Shown here: positions 22,675-63,563 of the stretch, piece by piece
Position numbering within the stretch: the first letter of the stretch is position 1
Layout: each line of letters starts with the position of its first letter
Origin: a virus
IMG/VR virus record: IMGVR_UViG_3300022752_000025
Span: 62,001 to 126,000 of that record
DNA length: 64,000 nucleotides
Direction: 5' to 3' (one strand)
Notes under the pieces: model-generated
What the model was told of the DNA's origin: nothing
The model's input: the letters and a program-made list of their open reading frames with translations, nothing else
The model's database searches: none
Translations under genes and position numbers: made by a program

Positions 22675-23667
22675 TTATATTTTTTCTTTATCACCAGAAA
22701 ACATTATTTGTAGTTCTTCTTTTATGGAGTTATTTATTTCTGATTTTATGAAAGATTTCATTTCGTCTAACTCATCAAATGAATAAAGAATATTATCTTG
22801 ATATAGCCTATATAGATTTATTTTTTCAAGAATATCACACTTATTAAAAATTAACTTATTGACCCCAGAAATTCTAATTGCACGAATTAATTTTGTTAAA
22901 TTCAACCAATTAACTAATCTTTTTCTACCAGTTGTAGAACCAAACTCCTGCCCAATATCAATAATCATATTCAATTCTGGATCATTCCAGAGATATTCTG
23001 GAAATAATGGATCTACTCCACTTTTTGTATCGTAAATTTTTGCAACGCCAATTATATCTCTAATTTTTTTTGGAGAAAAACCTAAAGAGCAAGCAGAGTA
23101 TGGAAGAGTTTCGCTACTAGTAACATAAGGATAATTTCCATAATTTATATCTAACCAAAAGCTTTGAGCTCCTTCACAAAGGATTTTGCCATAAAGATTT
23201 CCATCCCAAATATATTTTTTATCAATATAATCTTTTGCTAATTTTCCAGTTCTTAGCATTTTATCTGCATAAGCTGGGGCGATACCTTGTCCAGTGGTCC
23301 CAAGCTTTGGCTTTAAAAATTTAAGATCATATTGAATATGTCTTTCTGTGATGATATTTGCGTTTGAACTTACTTTAATTAAAGAAGTATCAAATCCATT
23401 TTTTTCAAGGTATTCTATTTCGTCAAAAAATTTATCTACATTAATAACGCAATTTGGTCCAATAACACTAATTTTATTTTGAAATATACCGCATGGTATT
23501 ATATGCGTTTTATATTTTTTATTATTTAAATAAATAGTGTGCCCAGCATTTGGCCCGCCATTCCAACGACAGACCATATCGTAATCTTTAGATATAGTAT
23601 TAGTAATTTTACCTTTTCCTTCATCTCCCCAACATAATCCAAAAATAATATCAACTAGTTTTATCAT
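22675..23667 (-). CDS. purA: Adenylosuccinate synthetase (short, PurA-type)
   Basis: 330 aa, about 100 shorter than cellular PurA, similar in length to phage forms. The P-loop-like GLCWGDEGKGKI keeps the catalytic Asp, and GGPNAGHTI keeps the catalytic His; STTGRKRLVNWLNL and FNKCDIL (base recognition) follow. PurZ of diaminopurine phages instead has GSTGKG at the first site, so this reads as a true PurA: IMP + Asp + GTP to adenylosuccinate. It stands near an IMPDH/GMPR-family gene, so both branches of purine synthesis from IMP may be boosted. Confidence 0.85.
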   Translation of the reverse strand: MIKLVDIIFGLCWGDEGKGKITNTISKDYDMVCRWNGGPNAGHTIYLNNKKYKTHIIPCGIFQNKISVIGPNCVINVDKFFDEIEYLEKNGFDTSLIKVSSNANIITERHIQYDLKFLKPKLGTTGQGIAPAYADKMLRTGKLAKDYIDKKYIWDGNLYGKILCEGAQSFWLDINYGNYPYVTSSETLPYSACSLGFSPKKIRDIIGVAKIYDTKSGVDPLFPEYLWNDPELNMIIDIGQEFGSTTGRKRLVNWLNLTKLIRAIRISGVNKLIFNKCDILEKINLYRLYQDNILYSFDELDEMKSFIKSEINNSIKEELQIMFSGDKEKI

Positions 23668-23903: not shown

Positions 23904-24290
23904 TTATCGGGTGCTTTCGAGTTTTGGCCTTAGTCTTTGGAAAGCCGCATTAACCTCGGCAACATTTTCAATTTTATTAGCATCCATAATAAGAAATGCT
24001 TTTTGTCCAAGTCTAAAATTTTCATCAGTTTTCGCGGATACAACAGCTTGAATTCTTGATCTCATTTGAGATTCGTTTTTTAATGAAAGATTTCTTTTTT
24101 GTTCTTGAAGAAGCTCTATATATTTTTTATTTGATTCAATTTGAGATTTTGCCAAATGATATTCCGCTCCTCTCGTAACATCATCATATTTTTGATATGT
24201 TGATTGACCTTTGCTGCTGCTAATAGCTATTAATAATGCAATTATTGCAATTGCTAGATATTTTATATTATTATAATTTTCCATGTGCAA
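23904..24290 (-). CDS. Membrane-anchored coiled-coil protein
   Basis: 128 aa (start ATG 24290; ATG 24284 is equally possible). Residues 10-25 (YLAIAIIALLIAISS) form a membrane anchor or signal segment, followed by a long charged helix (ESNKKYIELLQEQKRNLSL). Could be a spanin-like or envelope protein; no lipobox is visible. Its start overlaps the end of the IMPDH-like gene by 20 nt. Confidence 0.55.
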   Translation of the reverse strand: MHMENYNNIKYLAIAIIALLIAISSSKGQSTYQKYDDVTRGAEYHLAKSQIESNKKYIELLQEQKRNLSLKNESQMRSRIQAVVSAKTDENFRLGQKAFLIMDANKIENVAEVNAAFQRLRPKLESTR

Positions 24291-25374
24291 ATCCTTCGTA
24301 CAAGTTGTTTGCTGTAACTTTTACAGCTTTTATTTTATTTGTCCAAATGCCTCCGCGCATTTCTTCTATTGATCTAAATCCCAAATAACTCATTGCACTT
24401 CTTAAGCCATTGGCAAAATCATATACAATGTCTTCTATGGATTTATTTTCAATCAAGGGAATTAACGTGGCATCTCCTTCTACAAATAAATTCTTTTTTG
24501 TACCATCATATAAATCATAATCTTCTACGACATCTTTGCTTGCCATTCCTCTATATTTTGCATATCTTTTACCGTCTTTTTCTATTATATTTTCTTCATC
24601 TACGGAATCTGCAAGTCCAGCAAATATTCTTCCACATATTACGGCATCCGCACCACTCGCGATAGCTTTAACTAAATCTTTAGGATATCTAATCCCTCCA
24701 TCTGCTAAAATACTTGGACGATTTTCTTCTTTTGGATTTTCGTGTCTAAAATAATCTAGATTTGCTAACTGAAAATTTCTAACTGCTTTCCAAGCATAAT
24801 ATAAACCTGTGACACTTGGACATCCTATTCCAGTTTTTATTTGGGTCAAACACATTGATCCAGGTCCAATAAGATGCCTAAAACCATCTGATTTTAAATT
24901 AGCTAATCTATAAACACTTTCTTTTGTTAAAGTATTTCCAACGATTATATCTTGTTTATAGGATGATTGTTTATACCATATAAGAAAGTCTTCGACATTT
25001 TGAGATAAACCATTAGCAGTATCTAAAAAGAATATATCCGTATATTCCGAAATCATTTCAATTCTTTCTTTAAAGTCTTTAAGACCTATTGCATTTATGC
25101 AAAAATTACTTTCGTCTTTTATGTGCTTAGCTTTTTTAGCTTGATCGTCTGGAGACATAAATCTATGTAAAACTCCTGCACCACCAACTCTATTAATCTT
25201 TATACAAGATTTAACAGATGAAACTGTATCCATCGGAGAAAGTATAATTGGTATATCTATATATTTTGATTTGCTAATTTTTGTTATTGTATTAACTTCT
25301 TTTCTAGAAATAATATCTGAAAAATTTGGAAGTAAGGAGATATCATCGTATCCTAAAGCTTCTATAAATTCCAT
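24271..25374 (-). CDS. IMP dehydrogenase / GMP reductase family enzyme
   Basis: 367 aa, the length of forms without the CBS domains. The TIM-barrel family motifs are clear: ILSPMDTVSS, the catalytic loop GPGSMCLTQIKTGIGCPS (catalytic Cys), ADGGIRYPKDLVKAIASGADAVICGRIFAG and GLRSAMSYLGF. The YRGMASKDV segment lies between typical IMPDH (YRGMGS) and GMPR patterns, so the direction (IMP to XMP, or GMP to IMP) is not certain. It is first in an operon with purA, driven by a near-consensus promoter 6 nt before the ATG. Confidence 0.82.
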   Translation of the reverse strand: MEFIEALGYDDISLLPNFSDIISRKEVNTITKISKSKYIDIPIILSPMDTVSSVKSCIKINRVGGAGVLHRFMSPDDQAKKAKHIKDESNFCINAIGLKDFKERIEMISEYTDIFFLDTANGLSQNVEDFLIWYKQSSYKQDIIVGNTLTKESVYRLANLKSDGFRHLIGPGSMCLTQIKTGIGCPSVTGLYYAWKAVRNFQLANLDYFRHENPKEENRPSILADGGIRYPKDLVKAIASGADAVICGRIFAGLADSVDEENIIEKDGKRYAKYRGMASKDVVEDYDLYDGTKKNLFVEGDATLIPLIENKSIEDIVYDFANGLRSAMSYLGFRSIEEMRGGIWTNKIKAVKVTANNLYEGFAHGKL

Positions 25375-34027: not shown

Positions 34028-34543
34028 GTGACGGTTTCAGAAAGAGATTTAGATTTTTTTGCCAAAAAATTAAGTTTATCTCCAGAGAAAACTTTTCTGT
34101 TATTACAAGACCCAGATTGTTTGCCAGAAATTATTAATAAAGTTACTGAAGACGATATAAATGGAATTGTAGACATTAGTTTTCCAGTCTTTGTAGAACT
34201 AACTATTATAAAATATAGTAAAGATTTAAATTATTCATTTGAAGAAAAAGAATATATATCAGAAGCTGTTGGAACAAAATTCTATGATTTAATAGAATAT
34301 CCACTTCAAAATAAATATTTTTTTACATTAGAACAAAATGAAGATACGGCAAAATCTATATTAGTATTTCTTGGATTTTTTTATAAAAGTTTAGAGAAAT
34401 TAAGAAGATCCTATCCATCTGAAAATATATATTACAATATAGCTAAAAATGGATTTGAAAATTCAGATAAAGAAGAAATATCTGATCATCTTAAAGATTG
34501 GATTAAAGTTTTAAGAAGAATTCAGAATGAAGTGTGGTACTAA
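34028..34543 (+). CDS. Hypothetical protein
   Basis: 171 aa, GTG start set by the late-type motif 7 nt before it. Acidic and helical (ERDLDFFAKKLSLSPEKTFLLLQD; KDWIKVLRRIQNEVWY). No family recognised. Confidence 0.6.
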   Translation: MTVSERDLDFFAKKLSLSPEKTFLLLQDPDCLPEIINKVTEDDINGIVDISFPVFVELTIIKYSKDLNYSFEEKEYISEAVGTKFYDLIEYPLQNKYFFTLEQNEDTAKSILVFLGFFYKSLEKLRRSYPSENIYYNIAKNGFENSDKEEISDHLKDWIKVLRRIQNEVWY

Positions 34544-34549
34544 ATCCTT

Positions 34550-34866
34550 AATTATTTAACTTTTCTTTGATATCCAAAAGGGCTTTACCTCCAGATGTAA
34601 TATATCTGAAGTTAAGTATTATCAATCCAACTTTTCTTTTGACTCCAAATTTATCACAATTTCAGCGATAAACGGGCCATCGCACTTACGGATCAGAGGT
34701 AGCTTCGATCACTACATTCTGCGATGCCTACAGCTACATTCCCTTCTTTAGCCATATAATGTACAAATGAAGGTTTTAATAGTCGTCAGCCCTTGGGACG
34801 TTGCTATCTCAAGGATTGATAGTTGATTATTTGACATCAACAAACTGCTCTAATTGGGAACTATGT
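34550..34866 (-). ncRNA. Unidentified structured RNA with pseudoknot
   Basis: A gene-free stretch that folds strongly when read on the minus strand. Hairpin 1 TTTATCGC/GTGATAAA (34672-34650). Hairpin 2 CTTCAGAT/ATCTGGAG (34611-34589). H-type pseudoknot: GTAGC (34737-34733) pairs GCTAC (34703-34699), and the CATCGCA inside (34726-34720) pairs TGCGATG outside (34684-34678). A long-range helix CCAAGGGCT (34796-34788) with AGCCCTT and TTGG (34584-34574) closes most of the molecule. A near-consensus promoter precedes the 5' end. No match to RNase P, 6S, SRP or group I cores. Ends approximate. Confidence 0.65.
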
Positions 34867-34872
34867 TGAATT

Positions 34873-34901
34873 ATAATATATTAATTTTATTTTTTTGTCA
34901 A
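34873..34901 (-). promoter_or_regulatory. Sigma70-like promoter for the structured RNA
   Basis: Minus strand TTGACA (34901-34896), 17-nt spacer, TATTAT (34878-34873); transcription would begin near 34866, at the 5' edge of the folded region. Confidence 0.65.
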
Positions 34902-34920: not shown

Positions 34921-35130
34921 ATGGAAATAATAAAAAATAAAGCCAGATGGTCCGTTTATTCTAAAAAATGCATAAATCATTACAATCTTGATACTTGTAT
35001 CATTTCTGATCGCCCAAATGAATATCCTTGTATTGCTATACCACAATTAATATCAGACGCAAATGGAACCAGAATTAAATTTAATTTTATTTATAAAAAA
35101 GATTGCCAAAAACTTTTAAAAGCTTTATAA
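34921..35130 (+). CDS. 69-aa hypothetical protein
   Basis: 69 aa with four cysteines (KKCINH, DTCIIS, YPCIA, KDCQKL). No family recognised. The ATG is 6 nt after a TATAAT box and it lies directly upstream of the tmRNA, divergent from the structured RNA. Confidence 0.6.
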   Translation: MEIIKNKARWSVYSKKCINHYNLDTCIISDRPNEYPCIAIPQLISDANGTRIKFNFIYKKDCQKLLKAL

Positions 35131-35159: not shown

Positions 35160-35548
35160 GGGCGCGTACTGGTTTCGATTTTAGGAATCGAAATTAAAAT
35201 GCAAGTAGAGGTTTAGGTGGGTCTCTTTAAAAAACCTTAAAAGTATTAACTGCCAAAACAGCTAAATACAAAGGTCATATCTCTGCTAGAGTTTCTCTAG
35301 TTGAGGAGACCGCTTCTGTAGCCTAAGTTCTACAGCGTGATTACCATGACACATCTAATGGATAATTGCGTATTTAGATGTCTTTATTTATAAAGTTTTT
35401 TTATTCTTTATAAGTTTAGTATTCAAAATAAAATCGCCAATTATATTTGTTTTTCTTGTATAAAAGGTTAAAAATAAGAAAAACTAAACTTGTAGTATTT
35501 TAATTTAAATTCTCTAAAAGACGAGAGTTCGAATCTCTCCGCGTCCAA
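35160..35548 (+). ncRNA. ssrA: tmRNA (one-piece)
   Basis: 389 nt. The 5' GGGCGCG pairs completely (with one G-U) with the 3' CGCGTCC; the T arm is GAGAG-TTCGAAT-CTCTC; the 5' domain begins GGGCGCGTACTGGTTTCGAT. The resume codon is GCC at 35252, and the tag frame reads AKTAKYKGHI ... ETASVA with stop TAA at 35324-35326 (24 codons). CCA is not encoded. tmRNA with SmpB rescues stalled ribosomes and tags peptides for proteolysis. No smpB gene is visible, so host SmpB would be used. Confidence 0.93.
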
Positions 35549-38095: not shown

Positions 38096-40057
38096 ATGAA
38101 AATGAACCTATTTAAAAGGTTACTAAAAAATACAGCCGCAAGTTTAATTGCGGTTTTTTTATGCTCAAATGCCAAAGCCGCAACATTATATTGGGATGTT
38201 AATGGTGCGACTTCTGGAGTTGGCGGCTCTGGAAATTGGACAACCACAGGAACAACATGGTCCACCGACCCCAATGGAACAACTACAACTGTATCTGGAG
38301 GTTGGACAAGCGCGGGAACGGGACCAACTAATGCGGCTATATTTCAAGGAACATCTGGTCAAGTTACTTTAAGTAGTAGTACTGTATACGCAAATAATGT
38401 TCAAGTAAATTCTTCTGGTTATACTTTTTGGAATAGTGGCACTACATCTTCACAAAATAGGTATATTAGAAGTACGAATGGTATAACACTTGGAGTTGGA
38501 GTAAATTTAAATTGGGGATCATCTGGTGCAGTTTTGGGAGTAACTGGTCCTATAAATGGTGGCGCAGGTTCACTATTAACTATTGTGGGTGGTACGGATG
38601 CTTCTACTGGTGTTAATTCAAGAATCGGACTTTCTTCTAACGCTATAGCAACAGCCATCAATGTTCCCATGACTGTAGCTACTACAGGTACAGGATATGC
38701 AGTAGTATCCGTAACCGATTCTTCTACTACAAATAGAATTAACGGAAATATTACCATAAATAATGGATCTAAACTTATTCTTGGGACAGGATCATCTACA
38801 AGTAGAGCATTAATTGTAACTGGCACTATTACTTCTTCTGCAGATGGAGCTTTATCTATTAATGAAAGTGGAAATACTGGGCTAGTAGAATTAAGGGGTA
38901 ATAATATTTTAAGTGGAGATATTAATGTATATGGTCAATTAGGATATGCAAATAAAAATGCATTTGGTACAGCGAGATTAGTTCTTAACCAAGGCGCAAC
39001 TTTAGGCCAAAGTCAAACTATTGGTGATAATAGTGACGCAGCAAGAATAATTAATAATAATATTCTACTAAATGGAGATGTTACTATTGGCGGATTAAGT
39101 TGGGCAAATATTCTTGGTGGTAATATAGATTTAAATAATGCTACTAGATCTATTAAAGTAGACAACTCTACTACCATTTATGGAGGATTTGTTAATAGCA
39201 CTACAGGTTTAATATTTACAAATAGTTCAAGTTCTGTAGGAGGTAGAACAATGGCATTTAATGGCGCTAGTACATATTCTGGTAATACATATTTTAATTC
39301 TAGTGGAACAGGCTGGAATATTAGTGTGAATAATACTAATGGATCTGCTTTTGGAAGTGGAAATGTTTATGTATATAAAGGAACTTCTTTAAGTGCAAAT
39401 AATACAGGCACAACATTAAGTGGAAATGGAATTATCGCTGGAACAATTGGTGGAGATGCTATTGTAAGTCCAGGAAATAGTCCAGGATTATTAACTGTAG
39501 GAGCAGTAGACCCAAGCGCAGGAATGAGTTTTGCATTTGAGATTACTAGCGACTTATTGCATAATGGTACATCTTATAATAATGATATATTGAAAATAAC
39601 AAATACTCCACCATTTACTGTAGCATTGACATCTGCAAATATTGTTAATCTATATTTAAATTCAAATGCATATAATTTAATGTATAATAATTTATTATCT
39701 GGGATAAGTTCATCTTTTCAAACTGGATTTTTTAATGCTAATGATTTTAATACTGATATAGCAAATGCAACTTATAATATGTATTTTCAAAGTGGATTTG
39801 GAACAGCTGTATTTAATGGATTAACATACGAAACATATAATGAATTCTTAACTAGAACTTCATTATCTGATGCTTCTTACTTTGTCAATACCAGCTCCAC
39901 AACGCTTGTTGATTCTAATTTTGGATTTATATCTACAGTAAATGTTATTCCCGAACCTTCTGTTTCTGATCTTATAAATATACCTATTAAAACTCTAAAG
40001 TATGTAATTAAATTACATGCTTCTTTAGGGCCCACATATAATGAAAGGGGTTATTGA
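38096..40057 (+). CDS. Secreted autotransporter-type beta-strand protein with PEP-like tail
   Basis: 653 aa. Signal peptide MKMNLFKRLLKNTAASLIAV... with cleavage after AKA; then YWDVNGATSGVGGSGNWTTTGTTWST, the opening typical of autotransporter-associated beta-strand repeat proteins, followed by many short Gly/Asn/Ser-rich beta repeats. Near the end VNVIPEPSVSDL is a PEP-CTERM motif, but the following helix is weak and the tail is longer than usual. Strong Shine-Dalgarno AAGGAGTAAGG before the ATG. Probably of host origin and exported to the cell surface. Confidence 0.75.
   Translation: MKMNLFKRLLKNTAASLIAVFLCSNAKAATLYWDVNGATSGVGGSGNWTTTGTTWSTDPNGTTTTVSGGWTSAGTGPTNAAIFQGTSGQVTLSSSTVYANNVQVNSSGYTFWNSGTTSSQNRYIRSTNGITLGVGVNLNWGSSGAVLGVTGPINGGAGSLLTIVGGTDASTGVNSRIGLSSNAIATAINVPMTVATTGTGYAVVSVTDSSTTNRINGNITINNGSKLILGTGSSTSRALIVTGTITSSADGALSINESGNTGLVELRGNNILSGDINVYGQLGYANKNAFGTARLVLNQGATLGQSQTIGDNSDAARIINNNILLNGDVTIGGLSWANILGGNIDLNNATRSIKVDNSTTIYGGFVNSTTGLIFTNSSSSVGGRTMAFNGASTYSGNTYFNSSGTGWNISVNNTNGSAFGSGNVYVYKGTSLSANNTGTTLSGNGIIAGTIGGDAIVSPGNSPGLLTVGAVDPSAGMSFAFEITSDLLHNGTSYNNDILKITNTPPFTVALTSANIVNLYLNSNAYNLMYNNLLSGISSSFQTGFFNANDFNTDIANATYNMYFQSGFGTAVFNGLTYETYNEFLTRTSLSDASYFVNTSSTTLVDSNFGFISTVNVIPEPSVSDLINIPIKTLKYVIKLHASLGPTYNERGY
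38136..38160 (+). terminator. Terminator-like hairpin inside a signal-peptide coding region
   Basis: CCGCAA (38136-38141), 6-nt loop, TTGCGG (38148-38153), then seven T. It has the form of an intrinsic terminator but lies within the signal-peptide codons of the 653-aa gene, so it may act as an attenuator or be chance. Confidence 0.4.
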
Positions 40058-40060
40058 TTT

Positions 40061-40903
40061 ATGAAAAAACTAATAACAACAATACTAACAGCGCTTTTAA
40101 TTACAACAATAGTTATTCAAGCGCAAATAATTACATCTTGGAACGCTTACAATGATTTCTATTTAGCTCCTATTACAAGTGGATGGACAGGAGCAGTAGA
40201 TCCAAGTCAAGCAGGTAATGCTTGGGGTTATTACGCAGGTAATGTTAATGGTTTTGGATATCCAACACAGATTGGTTCTTATTTTACAACAAGTTTTTCT
40301 GGTATTGGTAGTCAAAGTCTTTATCAATTTTCTGATATATCTCCTTTAGGACCAGGATATGTATTTGCAAATACTTTATGGGATGCTACTGGAGGTATGG
40401 GATTTGCTCGTTATCAAGATAACTTGGGATGGGGAGTTAGCTTAGGTCGTTATGATAATCCATGGTTTTCGGGAGCCCCAGGTTTATCTAGAGGACTAAG
40501 CAATCTTATTTGGATGCAATCTGGTTGGCTAGGAGGAACTGGGTCAGAGGGTATTGCTTCTGTGCTATCTTTTACAATACCAGAAACAGGAACATATACT
40601 TTTACTGGTAAATTTATTGCAGGCGCTCAAGGCGCTAACGGAGCATCAGTTGCTATTGTTGATAGTCTTAATACTCCTCTATTATCTAGAACTACAATGA
40701 TAAGCGATGAACTGACTAATTTTAATTTTACTAAAACTTATAATACTGGAGATGTCGTGGAGTTTCAAGTAGGAAGCAATTTTACCACAGGTAATGCAGT
40801 AGGTTTAGATTTATATGTTATACCAGAACCTTCTTCATTTTCATTGTTAATAATTGGTGGAACAATGTTATATGGCTTAAGGAAACTAAGAAAAAATGGA
40901 TAA
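40061..40903 (+). CDS. PEP-CTERM secreted protein
   Basis: 280 aa. Signal peptide MKKLITTILTALLITTIVIQ; mature domain of beta-sandwich type; C-terminal VIPEPSSFSLLIIGGTMLYG followed by LRKLRKNG is a textbook PEP-CTERM signal (motif, helix, basic end) recognised by exosortase in the host envelope. No exosortase gene is visible, so sorting would rely on the host. Such signals are typical of Verrucomicrobiota, Planctomycetota and some Proteobacteria, rare in phages. Confidence 0.85.
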   Translation: MKKLITTILTALLITTIVIQAQIITSWNAYNDFYLAPITSGWTGAVDPSQAGNAWGYYAGNVNGFGYPTQIGSYFTTSFSGIGSQSLYQFSDISPLGPGYVFANTLWDATGGMGFARYQDNLGWGVSLGRYDNPWFSGAPGLSRGLSNLIWMQSGWLGGTGSEGIASVLSFTIPETGTYTFTGKFIAGAQGANGASVAIVDSLNTPLLSRTTMISDELTNFNFTKTYNTGDVVEFQVGSNFTTGNAVGLDLYVIPEPSSFSLLIIGGTMLYGLRKLRKNG

Positions 40904-55353: not shown

Positions 55354-56838
55354 ATGATATTCTCTTTGCAAGTAGAAAGACATGTTTTAAGTGGTTTATT
55401 AAAACATCAAGATTTATTCGCTGATATTGATATATTTTTATCAGAAAATGATTTTTATAATGATGTACATTCTACAATATATACAGTATTTAAAAATATT
55501 AAACATAAAGGCGGATCAGTAGATAAAGTTTTATTGGCAGAAAAAATTAAAAATCTAGGAATATCTTTTAAAGATGAAATAAATATATTTGATTATATTG
55601 ATAATTTAACATTCTCTCAAATAACAGAACAAGCCACAATGGAAGCTTGCAAAGAATTAATTAGACTAAGAGTAAGAAGAGAAATATCTCAAACAGCAGA
55701 TAAATTAAAAGATTATGTAAATAAAAACTCAGAAGATTCTTTAGATGAAATCATTGGTAAGATAGATCAAATTTATAATAAAAAAATATCATCATATTCA
55801 GAAAATGATGTACCAATCAATATTTTTGATCAAGTAGAAGATTTAATTGAAGAGATAGGAAATTCGCCAAAAGATGAAACAGGTTTAATTACTCCATATA
55901 ACGAATTTAATAGAATGTATGGCGGTTTAAAAAATGGAAATATATACGCAATAGCGAGTAGACCTGGACAAGGAAAATCAACATGGTTAAATGATATATG
56001 CTTCAAAACTTCTATAAATCCCAAAAATAAAACAAAAACTTTGATATTAGACACTGAAATGCAAACAATAGATATTCAATTAAGAATGGTAGCATCTTTA
56101 ACGGATGTACCAGTATGGTATCTTGAAACTGGAAATTGGCGAAAAAATGAAGAAATGACTCGAAAAGTAAGAGAAGCTTGGGCAAAAGTAAAAAATTATG
56201 AATATTTTCATTATCATGTAGGAAATAAAAATATAGATCAGATTTGCTCTATTATAAGAAGATGGTATCTTTCAAAGGTTGGAAGAGGTAATCAAGCGAT
56301 GATTGCTTATGATTACATTAAATTAACTGGAGAAAAAGTAGGTCAAAATTGGGCAGAACATCAAGCGATTGGAGAAAAAATAGATAAATTAAAAAGAATC
56401 TCAGAAGAAATTCATTGCCCAATTGTAACGGCGATGCAATTAAATAGAACTGGAGAAAATTTTAATAGAAACTCTTCAAATGTTGTAGATGATAGTTCGG
56501 TTATATCATTATCAGATAGATTACAATGGTTTGCGTCATTTGTAGCTATTTTTAGAAGAAAAACTGTTGATGAAATATCTTTAGATGGACAAGCATTTGG
56601 CACTCATAAGTTAATACCAACAAAAACTAGATTTCAAGGTAAAGACGCAGCAGGACATCAAGATTTAATTAGAAGATTAGATTCTGGTGGTAAAGAAATT
56701 TGGGCACAAAATTATCTCAATTATCAAGTTACAAATTTTAATATAGAAGAAAGAGGATCATTGAGAGATGTGGCCCAACACCAAAGAGAGCAGTATCAAT
56801 TAAATGATACAAACCCAAATGATGGAGAATTATTATGA
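55354..56838 (+). CDS. Replicative DNA helicase (DnaB/gp41-like)
   Basis: 494 aa. N-terminal helical domain (VERHVLSGLLKHQDLFADIDIFL, about 1-110), Walker A SRPGQGKSTWLN, Walker B-like AMIAYDYIKLTGE, then the DNA-binding/motif 4 region. Unwinds DNA at the fork with the primase encoded downstream. Overlaps thyX by 4 nt. Confidence 0.88.
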   Translation: MIFSLQVERHVLSGLLKHQDLFADIDIFLSENDFYNDVHSTIYTVFKNIKHKGGSVDKVLLAEKIKNLGISFKDEINIFDYIDNLTFSQITEQATMEACKELIRLRVRREISQTADKLKDYVNKNSEDSLDEIIGKIDQIYNKKISSYSENDVPINIFDQVEDLIEEIGNSPKDETGLITPYNEFNRMYGGLKNGNIYAIASRPGQGKSTWLNDICFKTSINPKNKTKTLILDTEMQTIDIQLRMVASLTDVPVWYLETGNWRKNEEMTRKVREAWAKVKNYEYFHYHVGNKNIDQICSIIRRWYLSKVGRGNQAMIAYDYIKLTGEKVGQNWAEHQAIGEKIDKLKRISEEIHCPIVTAMQLNRTGENFNRNSSNVVDDSSVISLSDRLQWFASFVAIFRRKTVDEISLDGQAFGTHKLIPTKTRFQGKDAAGHQDLIRRLDSGGKEIWAQNYLNYQVTNFNIEERGSLRDVAQHQREQYQLNDTNPNDGELL

Positions 56839-60769: not shown

Positions 60770-60985
60770 ATGGCTTCACTAGATGATATATATGATATGG
60801 TCCAAAAATTAGACGATTCTAATATAGAATATCTTTTAATCACTGTTCAAAAAGGTAAAAAAAATGGCAAGGCAGATATTTTTTATTCCTTAAAAGATAA
60901 AAACTCAATGAGAATATTAACTCATGGATTAAATCAATTTAGTAAAGAGATAGATAAATTAGATGATGAAGGAAAATTTGAATAA
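60770..60985 (+). CDS. Small protein in the polymerase operon
   Basis: 71 aa (SLDDIYDMVQKLDDSNIEYLLITVQKGKKNGKADIFYSLKD). A short alpha-beta protein overlapping the polymerase gene by 23 nt. Unknown; could be a polymerase accessory factor by position. Confidence 0.6.
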   Translation: MASLDDIYDMVQKLDDSNIEYLLITVQKGKKNGKADIFYSLKDKNSMRILTHGLNQFSKEIDKLDDEGKFE

Positions 60986-63563
60986 AATTAAATCTTATAA
61001 AGATTTTTCTTCTAAATTTGAAGAAATAGATCTAGGTCTTCATGGCGTAAGATTACCAGAATTTAATATAGATAAATCCTATAAAAGGCATTTAAATTTA
61101 AGTGAAGACGCTTCTAATTATGAATTTCTTAGAGCATTAGCTTTAAATGGATTTAAAAATCTAAATATAGATAAAAATTCATCAGATTATAAAAAATATG
61201 TAGATCGCGCCAAGCATGAATTAGATACGTTAAAAGAACTAGGATTTATTGATTATATTTTGTTAGTATGGGACGTAATTAATTACTGCAAAGAAAATAA
61301 CATACCAATTGGTTTAGGTAGAGGCTCTGCGGCAGGATCACTAATACTTTATCTAGTTGGAGTTACAAGAATTGATCCAGTTAAATATGATCTTTATTTT
61401 GAAAGATTTATATCCAAGATTAGGGCTAAAAAGCAAGTAATTGATGGAATAACATATTTAGATGGCAGTTTAATGTGCGACGTAGACCTTGATATTTGTT
61501 ATTATAATCGTCATAAAGTTCTAGAATATTTAGAAAATAAATTTAAAGGTAAAACTAGCAAGATTTTAACTTTAAATACTCTTAGTGGAAAACTTCTTAT
61601 AAAAGAATGCGGCAAAATTGTCGCAGAAAAAACAGAAGAAGAGATGACAACCATATCATCATTAATACCTAAAATATACGGACAAGTTAAAGATATCACT
61701 ACTGCTTATGAAGAAATACAAAAATTTAAAGAATGGTGCGATGAAAATAAAGAAGCATACCAAATAGCTTTAAAATTAAGAGATTTAATTAAAAATAAAG
61801 GAGTGCATCCATCAGGAGTACTTCTTTCTTATGATGATTTAGAGAAAATTTGTCCTACAGAATTTTCTGGCGACAAAGAAGCAGTATCTAGTTTTGATAT
61901 GAATTGGGTAAGTTTATTTAATATAAAACTTGATATTCTTGGTTTAAGAAGCGTTTCAGTTGTGGATGATGTATGTAAAAATATTTCAATTAAAATAGAA
62001 GAAATTGATCTTAATAATGAATCTATTTATAGAAATCTACAAGACTTACGTTCTCCCCATGGATTATTCCAAATTGAAGCTGATACAAATTTTAGAGTAT
62101 GCCAAAAAGTAAAACCTAAAAATCTAGAAGAGTTAAGTGCAGTTTTAGCTTTGGCTAGACCTGGAGCATTGCAATTTGTAGAAAAATATGCAAAATATAC
62201 TAATTACGGCGAATACGAATCGATACATCCATTTTTTGATGATATTTTAAAACAAACAGGTGGGGTCGCATTATACCAAGAGCAATTAATGCAAATGGCT
62301 CATAAAATTGGTTTTTCTTTAGATGAGGCAGAAATTTTAAGAAGAATTGTAGGAAAAAAGAAAGTAGAAGAGATTAAATCTTGGCAAAAAAAGATTCATC
62401 AAAAATGTAAAGAAAATAAATTACCAAAAGAAGTTGGAGAAATTCTATGGAAAATCATGGAAGATTCAGCAAATTACTCATTTAATAAATCTCACTCTCT
62501 TGCTTACGCTGCCCTAGCCGCAGTAACTATATATCTTAAGTTTAATTATCCAAAAGAATTCTTTTTATCATTATTAAAAATGAGTAGAAATGAGCCAGAT
62601 CCAATTGGAGAAATTTCTAAAATACAAAAAGAAATGCATAATTTTGATATACAATTATTACCACCACATATTATAAAATCTGAGATGGACTTCTCTATTG
62701 AAGATAAAAATATTAGATTTGGACTTTTGTCAATAAAAGGAATTAGCGATAAGTCAATAGAAAAACTTAATAGTTTTAGAAATAAATATTCAAATAAATT
62801 CGAGATATTTCAAGCCGCAGAAGAAGCGGATTTAAACATCGGTGTTTTATCAGCGTTAATTCAAGCTGGCGCATTAAGCGGATTTAATCAATCTAGATCA
62901 AAGATTGTTCTAGAAGCTCAACTTTGGAATATTCTAAACTCAAAAGAAAAAAAATACTCTATATCTTTTGCTGATAAATTCGACTACGATTTAATTAAAA
63001 TAATTAAACATTTAAATAAATTTACAGACGAAAAAAATAACCCTATTATTAAAGATACTAGATTAAATACTATTAAAAATAGATATGAACCATATCTTCA
63101 AATATATAATCAAAATAGTAAAAGCGAAGGTTTCGCTAATTGGTATTACGAGAAAAAGCTATTAGGATATACATATAATAAATCTCTAAAAGATATTTTT
63201 AGTGAAAAAAGAGAAAATTTGGAATATATTTTAGATATTAAAGAAGAACCAATTAATACTAAAATAGCTTTCGTTGGTCAAATAGAAGAGATTTTTTCTG
63301 GAATTTCAAAAAGTGAAAAAAAGACAAGATATTTAAGATTAAAAATATCAGACGAAACATCTACAATATCATCATTATTATTTAACGATAATATTGAAAA
63401 TAATAAATTATTAAATAATTCTAAAAATTTCGAAGAAGGCAATATAGTAATAATAAAAGGTATTAAAAAAGACGATTGCATATTTGCTGATTTAGTAGCT
63501 ATACAAGATCAACATATTTATATGAAATTAAATGATCTTAAAAAGATAGAGAAAAATACTTGA
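60963..63563 (+). CDS. dnaE: DNA polymerase III alpha catalytic protein (DnaE-like, PHP-less)
   Basis: 866 aa. Palm motif GLGRGSAAGSLILYLVGVTRIDPVKYDLYFERFIS, catalytic DVDLDICYYNRHKV, FNKSHSLAYAALAA (fingers), a helix-hairpin-helix region and a C-terminal OB fold (KIAFVGQIEEIFSGISKSEKKTRYLRLKISDETSTISSLLF). The N-terminus begins right after where the PHP domain would end. PHP protein plus this protein add up to about 1,114 aa, the size of a normal DnaE. Confidence 0.88.
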   Translation: MMKENLNKIKSYKDFSSKFEEIDLGLHGVRLPEFNIDKSYKRHLNLSEDASNYEFLRALALNGFKNLNIDKNSSDYKKYVDRAKHELDTLKELGFIDYILLVWDVINYCKENNIPIGLGRGSAAGSLILYLVGVTRIDPVKYDLYFERFISKIRAKKQVIDGITYLDGSLMCDVDLDICYYNRHKVLEYLENKFKGKTSKILTLNTLSGKLLIKECGKIVAEKTEEEMTTISSLIPKIYGQVKDITTAYEEIQKFKEWCDENKEAYQIALKLRDLIKNKGVHPSGVLLSYDDLEKICPTEFSGDKEAVSSFDMNWVSLFNIKLDILGLRSVSVVDDVCKNISIKIEEIDLNNESIYRNLQDLRSPHGLFQIEADTNFRVCQKVKPKNLEELSAVLALARPGALQFVEKYAKYTNYGEYESIHPFFDDILKQTGGVALYQEQLMQMAHKIGFSLDEAEILRRIVGKKKVEEIKSWQKKIHQKCKENKLPKEVGEILWKIMEDSANYSFNKSHSLAYAALAAVTIYLKFNYPKEFFLSLLKMSRNEPDPIGEISKIQKEMHNFDIQLLPPHIIKSEMDFSIEDKNIRFGLLSIKGISDKSIEKLNSFRNKYSNKFEIFQAAEEADLNIGVLSALIQAGALSGFNQSRSKIVLEAQLWNILNSKEKKYSISFADKFDYDLIKIIKHLNKFTDEKNNPIIKDTRLNTIKNRYEPYLQIYNQNSKSEGFANWYYEKKLLGYTYNKSLKDIFSEKRENLEYILDIKEEPINTKIAFVGQIEEIFSGISKSEKKTRYLRLKISDETSTISSLLFNDNIENNKLLNNSKNFEEGNIVIIKGIKKDDCIFADLVAIQDQHIYMKLNDLKKIEKNT

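Follow-up and report, generated by a model that had tools for sequence, protein, structure and literature searches.

The stable RNAs C and D of phage T4 are phage-encoded, have no assigned function, and are shorter than the RNA described here; ROOL RNAs are larger. GOLLD and ROOL are known phage-encoded ornate RNAs, likewise without an assigned function, many GOLLD members exceeding 800 nt, and two RNAs of the GOLLD/ROOL type form protein-free cages (PMC12286853).

The window analyzed here is a stretch of 64,000 nucleotides and forms part of a 132,273-base IMG/VR virus record. The present analysis supports the view that one of its segments holds an as yet unclassified structured RNA with its own predicted promoter. 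With compensatory changes, a promoter of its own, and no conserved reading frame, it falls within the broad kind of phage-encoded structured noncoding RNAs. Compact phage genomes rarely retain 300 nt of non-coding DNA.

The RNA Gene and Its Promoter

An earlier note on this DNA had placed a gene-free segment with a structured minus-strand RNA at 34550–34901. Inspection of the open reading frames bears out the absence of genes, as only short chance ORFs are present on either strand, while the span is trimmed here to the RNA, at about 34559–34866, and the promoter, which extends to 34901. The features of the locus are the following:

34028–34543, plus strand: 171-aa ORF, neighbor of the RNA
34559–34866, minus strand: RNA gene of about 308 nt, based on homologues and alignment A2 (see below), both ends predicted
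34873–34901, minus strand: predicted sigma-70-type promoter TTGACA-17-TATTAT, 11/12 match to the consensus
34921–35130, plus strand: 69-aa ORF, neighbor of the RNA
35160–35548, plus strand: phage tmRNA, a separate gene, next after the 69-aa ORF

The minus-strand TTGACA-17-TATTAT reported earlier is found at 34901–34873 and is kept across the homologues. TTGACA is present in 68 of 71 and the 17-nt spacing in 70 of 71, TTGACA-17-TANNAT being the form of the promoter in nearly all of them. The 5′ end of the RNA was set from the promoter position and the onset of conservation, the conserved ACATAG beginning 6–7 nt past the −10 box. The 3′ end was set where conservation stops, which is directly past the second copy of the twin motif discussed below. 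We only infer this end, because a search for an intrinsic terminator there found none.

Some other genes of the phage can be mentioned here. The ORFs at 38096–40057 and 40061–40903 (plus strand) have, by eye, the look of PEP-CTERM surface proteins, which is unusual in a phage; the former has no Pfam match, and the C-terminus of the latter reads ...VIPEPSSFSLLIIGGTMLYGLRKLRKNG. Also by eye, 60963–63563, 55354–56838, 22675–23667, and 24271–25374 resemble a bacterial-type DNA polymerase III alpha, a DnaB-like helicase, an adenylosuccinate synthetase, and an IMP dehydrogenase/GMP reductase-like protein, respectively. The NrdB protein is close to that of T4-like pelagiphages, yet the replication genes are not T4-like in look. 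The tag of the tmRNA ends in ...VEETASVA.

Homologues and Fold

The folding energy of the minus strand has z = −3.05, with 1 of 100 shuffles equally good, and that of the plus strand has z = −1.86. By itself, this is a modest signal, only moderately unusual, and homologues were therefore examined. In IMG/VR, 71 distinct homologous RNA sequences are found at several genomic positions, their carriers being a group of uncultured bacterial viruses from aquatic environments. They divide into subfamilies 1a (that of the window), 1b, 1c, and 2. The window NrdB as query gave 79 related viral loci, 11 of which are matched by the RNA stretch, with 68–91% identity and in two different genomic positions. 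Scans of IMG/VR with the conserved 3′ stretch and with the P4 hairpin gave 55 and 42 loci, respectively, most of the latter in a second, diverged group, and two more pattern scans of IMG/VR found no third subfamily.

In the joint 31-sequence alignment (A2), the RNA consists, from 5′ to 3′, of P1, P2, the closing helix P3, which spans most of the RNA and encloses P4, P5, P6, and P7, and finally P8 and the 3′ end. The fold includes two pseudoknots: PK1 joins the stretch before P6 to the P6 loop, and PK2 joins the P4 loop to a stretch near the 3′ end. The elements, with the evidence for each, are the following:

34847–34861, minus strand: hairpin P1 (GUUC/GAGC); compensatory variants GCUU/AAGC, GCCU/AGGC, GUCC/GGAC, and CCGC/GCGG in A2
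34822–34841, minus strand: hairpin P2 (GUUGAU/AUCAAC); seen in the sequence, with a group 2 counterpart showing both-side changes
34813–34821, minus strand: 5′ strand of P3 (UAUCAAUCC), a 9-bp long-range closing helix; 8 of 9 pairs with both-side changes
34620–34628, minus strand: 3′ strand of P3 (GGAUUGAUA), partner of UAUCAAUCC; same covariation and swap test
34779–34807, minus strand: hairpin P4 (AUAG-C-AA-CGUC ... GACG-A-CUAU); 100% of cells paired, 5 of 7 pairs with both-side changes
34788–34794, minus strand: 5′ strand of PK2 (AAGGGCU), in the P4 loop; pairs with 34578–34584
34578–34584, minus strand: 3′ strand of PK2 (AGCCCUU), in a conserved AAAG context; covariation and swap test
34742–34774, minus strand: hairpin P5; 3 of 4 pairs with both-side changes
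34732–34737, minus strand: 5′ strand of PK1 (GUAGCU); pairs with 34699–34704
34699–34704, minus strand: 3′ strand of PK1 (AGCUAC), in the P6 loop; covariation and swap test
34675–34728, minus strand: long hairpin P6 with inner and outer stems; both-side changes in 4 of 5 inner and 2 of 6 outer pairs
34650–34672, minus strand: hairpin P7, 8 bp (UUUAUCGC/GUGAUAAA); 6 pairs with both-side changes in the group 1 alignment
34589–34611, minus strand: hairpin P8, 8 bp (CUUCAGAU/AUCUGGAG); supported in several subfamilies, swap test without discrimination

Covariation was evaluated on A2 with a model of 44 pairs that includes both pseudoknots and omits P1, P2, P7, and P8, where the subfamilies are not alignable column by column. 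Standard pairs occupy 89.8% of the cells, compared to 31–47% in slid controls, and the covariation score is 0.522, compared to 0.08–0.14. Both sides change in 29 of the 44 pairs. Among the pseudoknots, the 7-bp PK2 occurs as GGAGCUU/AAGCUCC, GAAGACUU/AAGUCUUC, and CAAAGCUU/AAGCUUUG, and PK1 as GUAGCU/AGCUAC, GUGGCU/AGCCAC, and GUAGGU/ACCUAC. Pairing was also evaluated with an alignment-free swap test, in which a 5′ strand is set against its own 3′ strand, that of another subfamily, or a shuffled one. P3 scores 23.7 with its own strand, 13.8 between groups, and 13.1 with shuffled strands, and PK2 scores 18.6 with its own and 10.4 with swapped strands; for the 5′ strands of both, cross-subfamily pairing is on average barely above shuffled. 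P4 and P8 are not discriminated by this test, because the windows used were short or conserved.

The structure is thus conserved in the family at the RNA level. The earlier note had made its reading depend on compensatory changes in the helices that it named, and these are abundant. Its 9-bp long-range closing helix is P3, and its 5+7-bp H-type pseudoknot is taken here as P4 with the 7-bp loop pairing of PK2, both being supported by covariation; the 8-bp hairpin that it saw twice is taken as P7 and P8, which are both present in the sequence. PK1, around P6, is a second pseudoknot beyond the one taken as described there.

Distribution and Genomic Context

The record of the window (G000) contains exactly one copy of the RNA, and so does each of 12 further phage records. 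In subfamilies 1a and 1c, it diverges from the family of the 69-aa ORF and converges with that of a 171-aa or 112-aa ORF. In 1b and 2, it shares the strand of nrdA and lies about 70–120 nt upstream of this gene. Copies at other locations are few. There are accordingly at least two kinds of location, with opposite orientations relative to the nrd genes, and the RNA is a self-contained gene that has changed place. Transposon-like insertion borders were considered and rejected, as there is no clean empty site and the neighboring region differs in gene content.

The adjacency to the tmRNA pointed out in the earlier note holds in the window, 1a, and 1c and fails in 1b and 2, with the tmRNA 10–18 kb away where mapped. 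Since it applies only to some subfamilies, it is not part of the RNA function. All 11 RNA-bearing records checked also encode a tmRNA, three relatives have a tmRNA with no detectable RNA, and the other examined relatives have neither. Such co-occurrence is only a hint, as the records share ancestry and some are fragments.

The 69-aa ORF family, for which Pfam and PHROG gave no match, is the divergent neighbor in 33 members of 1a and 1c. Its product is a candidate partner protein, in 1a and 1c only.

No copy was detected in near relatives with the same kind of NrdB, so that at least some of these phages can do without the RNA. The cultured Pelagibacter phages HTVC008M and Mosig, which are near by NrdB, gave no credible match to the core covariance model, and INPHARED phages gave, at the DNA level, only short AT-rich chance matches. 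In bacterial genomes, the P4 pattern has 45 matches, which we attribute to chance because none has the 7-nt PK2 partner downstream. Two other loci, L159:2130–2450 (+) and L178:10560–10780 (+), have the P4 hairpin, preceded by a TTGAC-type sequence and followed by a PK2-like partner. Being preselected by the P4 pattern and having weak scores, they are possible, unproven distant members of the family. The stretch in L159 directly precedes a terminase-like gene pair.

The Twin Motif

The region near the 3′ end contains a 10-nt core in two copies, 66–76 nt apart, which are absent from the earlier note:

34630–34642, minus strand: twin motif copy 1 (UCAAAAGAAAAGU); core same as in copy 2 in 70/70 homologues
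34559–34570, minus strand: twin motif copy 2 (UCAAAGAAAAGU), at the RNA 3′ end; core same as in copy 1, conservation ending after it

Copy 1 has the form UCAA(N9) and copy 2 the form UCA(N9), the core being defined as the first base after U and the nine N. The core is identical between the copies in all 70 scorable RNAs, in spite of occurring in 8 versions across the family. The N9 versions are AAGAAAAGU, UUGGGAAGU, UUGGAAAGU, CUGGGAAGU, UUGGGAAAU, UUGGGAAUU, and UUGGGAAGA, and a further version of the core has a C/U change before N9 in group 1. When the copies are shuffled within the groups, 32 of 49 and 8 of 21 are identical on average. When the tree is built with the motif left out, parsimony requires 8 changes for each copy, and these 8 also suffice for the two jointly, with no mismatching tip. 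The group 1 search pattern contained copy 2 and not copy 1. The members of group 2 were found by a P4 pattern that excludes the motif, and the identity of the copies is therefore no selection effect there. These results show that the two copies must stay identical to each other. Such concerted evolution of two short sites in one RNA is unusual, and searches for RNAs with paired recognition sites could use concerted twin sites as a general signature.

Proposed Mechanism and Alternatives

On balance, we lean toward an early, free-standing, trans-acting scaffold RNA that offers one partner the same recognition site twice. Host RNA polymerase would transcribe the RNA early in infection, and both motif copies would be single-stranded, the fold serving as a scaffold that fixes their separation, one copy immediately preceding the closing strand of P3 and the other lying at the 3′ end. 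Both would bind in trans to one and the same partner. This would most probably be a protein that is dimeric or binds repeatedly, and less probably a host RNA or DNA to which the 9–10 nt core pairs; the RNA would act as a sponge or assembly platform for this partner. Drift in the specificity of the partner would force both copies to follow, which would explain the concerted change. A protein is favored because no nucleic-acid target was found in the incomplete phage contigs.

The RNA could instead be an antisense guide similar to multi-seed regulatory RNAs, its fold displaying the two identical cores as seeds that pair with a single site in host or phage RNA or DNA. Concerted drift of the 9–10 nt core is indeed expected when a drifting target is tracked. 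However, the complement of the core shows no clear enrichment over a reversed-pattern control in the 132-kb phage record and nine group-2 contigs, and the tmRNA contains no complement above shuffles, which makes this alternative unlikely. Extra sense copies of the core are not enriched in phage sequence either. Phage mRNA or DNA as the target of the motif was rejected for lack of enrichment in phage sequence, and the tmRNA as its partner for lack of a complement.

We have also considered a homo-oligomeric structural RNA of the GOLLD/ROOL type, with the twin motifs as contacts between subunits. Being phage-encoded, ornate, and with no assigned function, the RNA would have a precedent in the cages of that type, but its length is about 308 nt vs more than 800 nt for many GOLLD members (PMC12286853). 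In addition, the cores are not self-complementary (group 1 AAGAAAAGU; group 2 UUGGGAAGU), and Watson–Crick kissing between copies would therefore not take place. Inspection of A2 revealed no complement of the core within the RNA and no complementary segment that changes with the cores. We thus regard such an assembly as improbable.

It is very improbable that the RNA acts in cis on the ribonucleotide reductase operon nrdA-nrdB, as a 5′ leader or riboswitch. This would agree with the position of the 1b and 2 RNAs upstream of nrdA on the same strand. In the window, 1a, and 1c, however, the RNA is on the opposite strand, convergent with a gene that follows nrdB, and has no nrdA downstream; the fold and the twin motifs are kept. 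Because of the opposite orientation in 1a and 1c, the RNA is not solely an nrdA leader across the family.

A guide RNA of a TnpB-, IscB-, or Cas-like nuclease, in line with a large pseudoknotted RNA occurring as a movable cassette, can practically be dismissed, since nine RNA-bearing phage records have no match to the TnpB zinc ribbon PF07282, Rfam gives no HEARO (IscB RNA) match, IscB being tested through this RNA model only, and both RNA ends are conserved, with no variable guide segment within the conserved unit.

The trans-acting scaffold RNA that we prefer leads to a direct prediction, namely that mutating one or both copies of the twin motif should abolish the capture of a specific partner. 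More tentatively, and with somewhat more doubt than trust, we propose a new class of phage RNA, with a duplicated recognition sequence under strict selection for mutual identity, that may act as a two-site scaffold or sponge for a fast-evolving infection partner and may extend to the unrelated phages of L159 and L178 through a shared P4/PK2 module. With 71 distinct members, strong covariation, and no database entry, such a class would offer a clear entry point.

Comparison with Known RNA Families

The Rfam 15 covariance models were run on the whole window, where only the tmRNA and tRNAs reach the gathering score, and lax scans of members of the four subfamilies gave chance-level matches only. 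For the RNA itself, no family, OLE among them, reaches the threshold and none is credible below it, including RNase P, 6S, SRP, and group I, in line with the earlier note, which had seen no signatures of these and had suggested the scan. The RNA is not a tmRNA, as the tRNA-like domain and the tag reading frame were not found and the tmRNA is a separate gene at 35160–35548. A circularly permuted RNase P, considered for a GNAAAG...GCUU pairing, was dropped, since other conserved elements are absent and no RNase P model matches. We found no description of the twin-motif RNA in the literature.

The omega RNA of IscB (HEARO) resembles the twin-motif RNA in its length of about 300 nt, several pseudoknots, and varied positions. 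However, it depends on a nuclease system next to it and on a variable guide, neither of which is seen here, and its model gives no match. ROOL is similar as a large ornate noncoding RNA of phages and prophages with no assigned function, and differs in that its covariance model does not match. The likeness to GOLLD is that of a phage- or prophage-encoded RNA with an elaborate conserved fold, pseudoknots, and no assigned function. GOLLD is often near tRNA genes, and the twin-motif RNA is sometimes near the tmRNA. GOLLD, which has a conserved 3′ domain and several hundred to more than 800 nt, is much longer than the approximately 308 nt found here, and membership was rejected on this difference and on the lack of an Rfam match. 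To our knowledge, the twin motif does not occur in GOLLD RNA. By these comparisons, the family lies outside the catalogued RNA families, and its co-evolving twin motif sets it apart.
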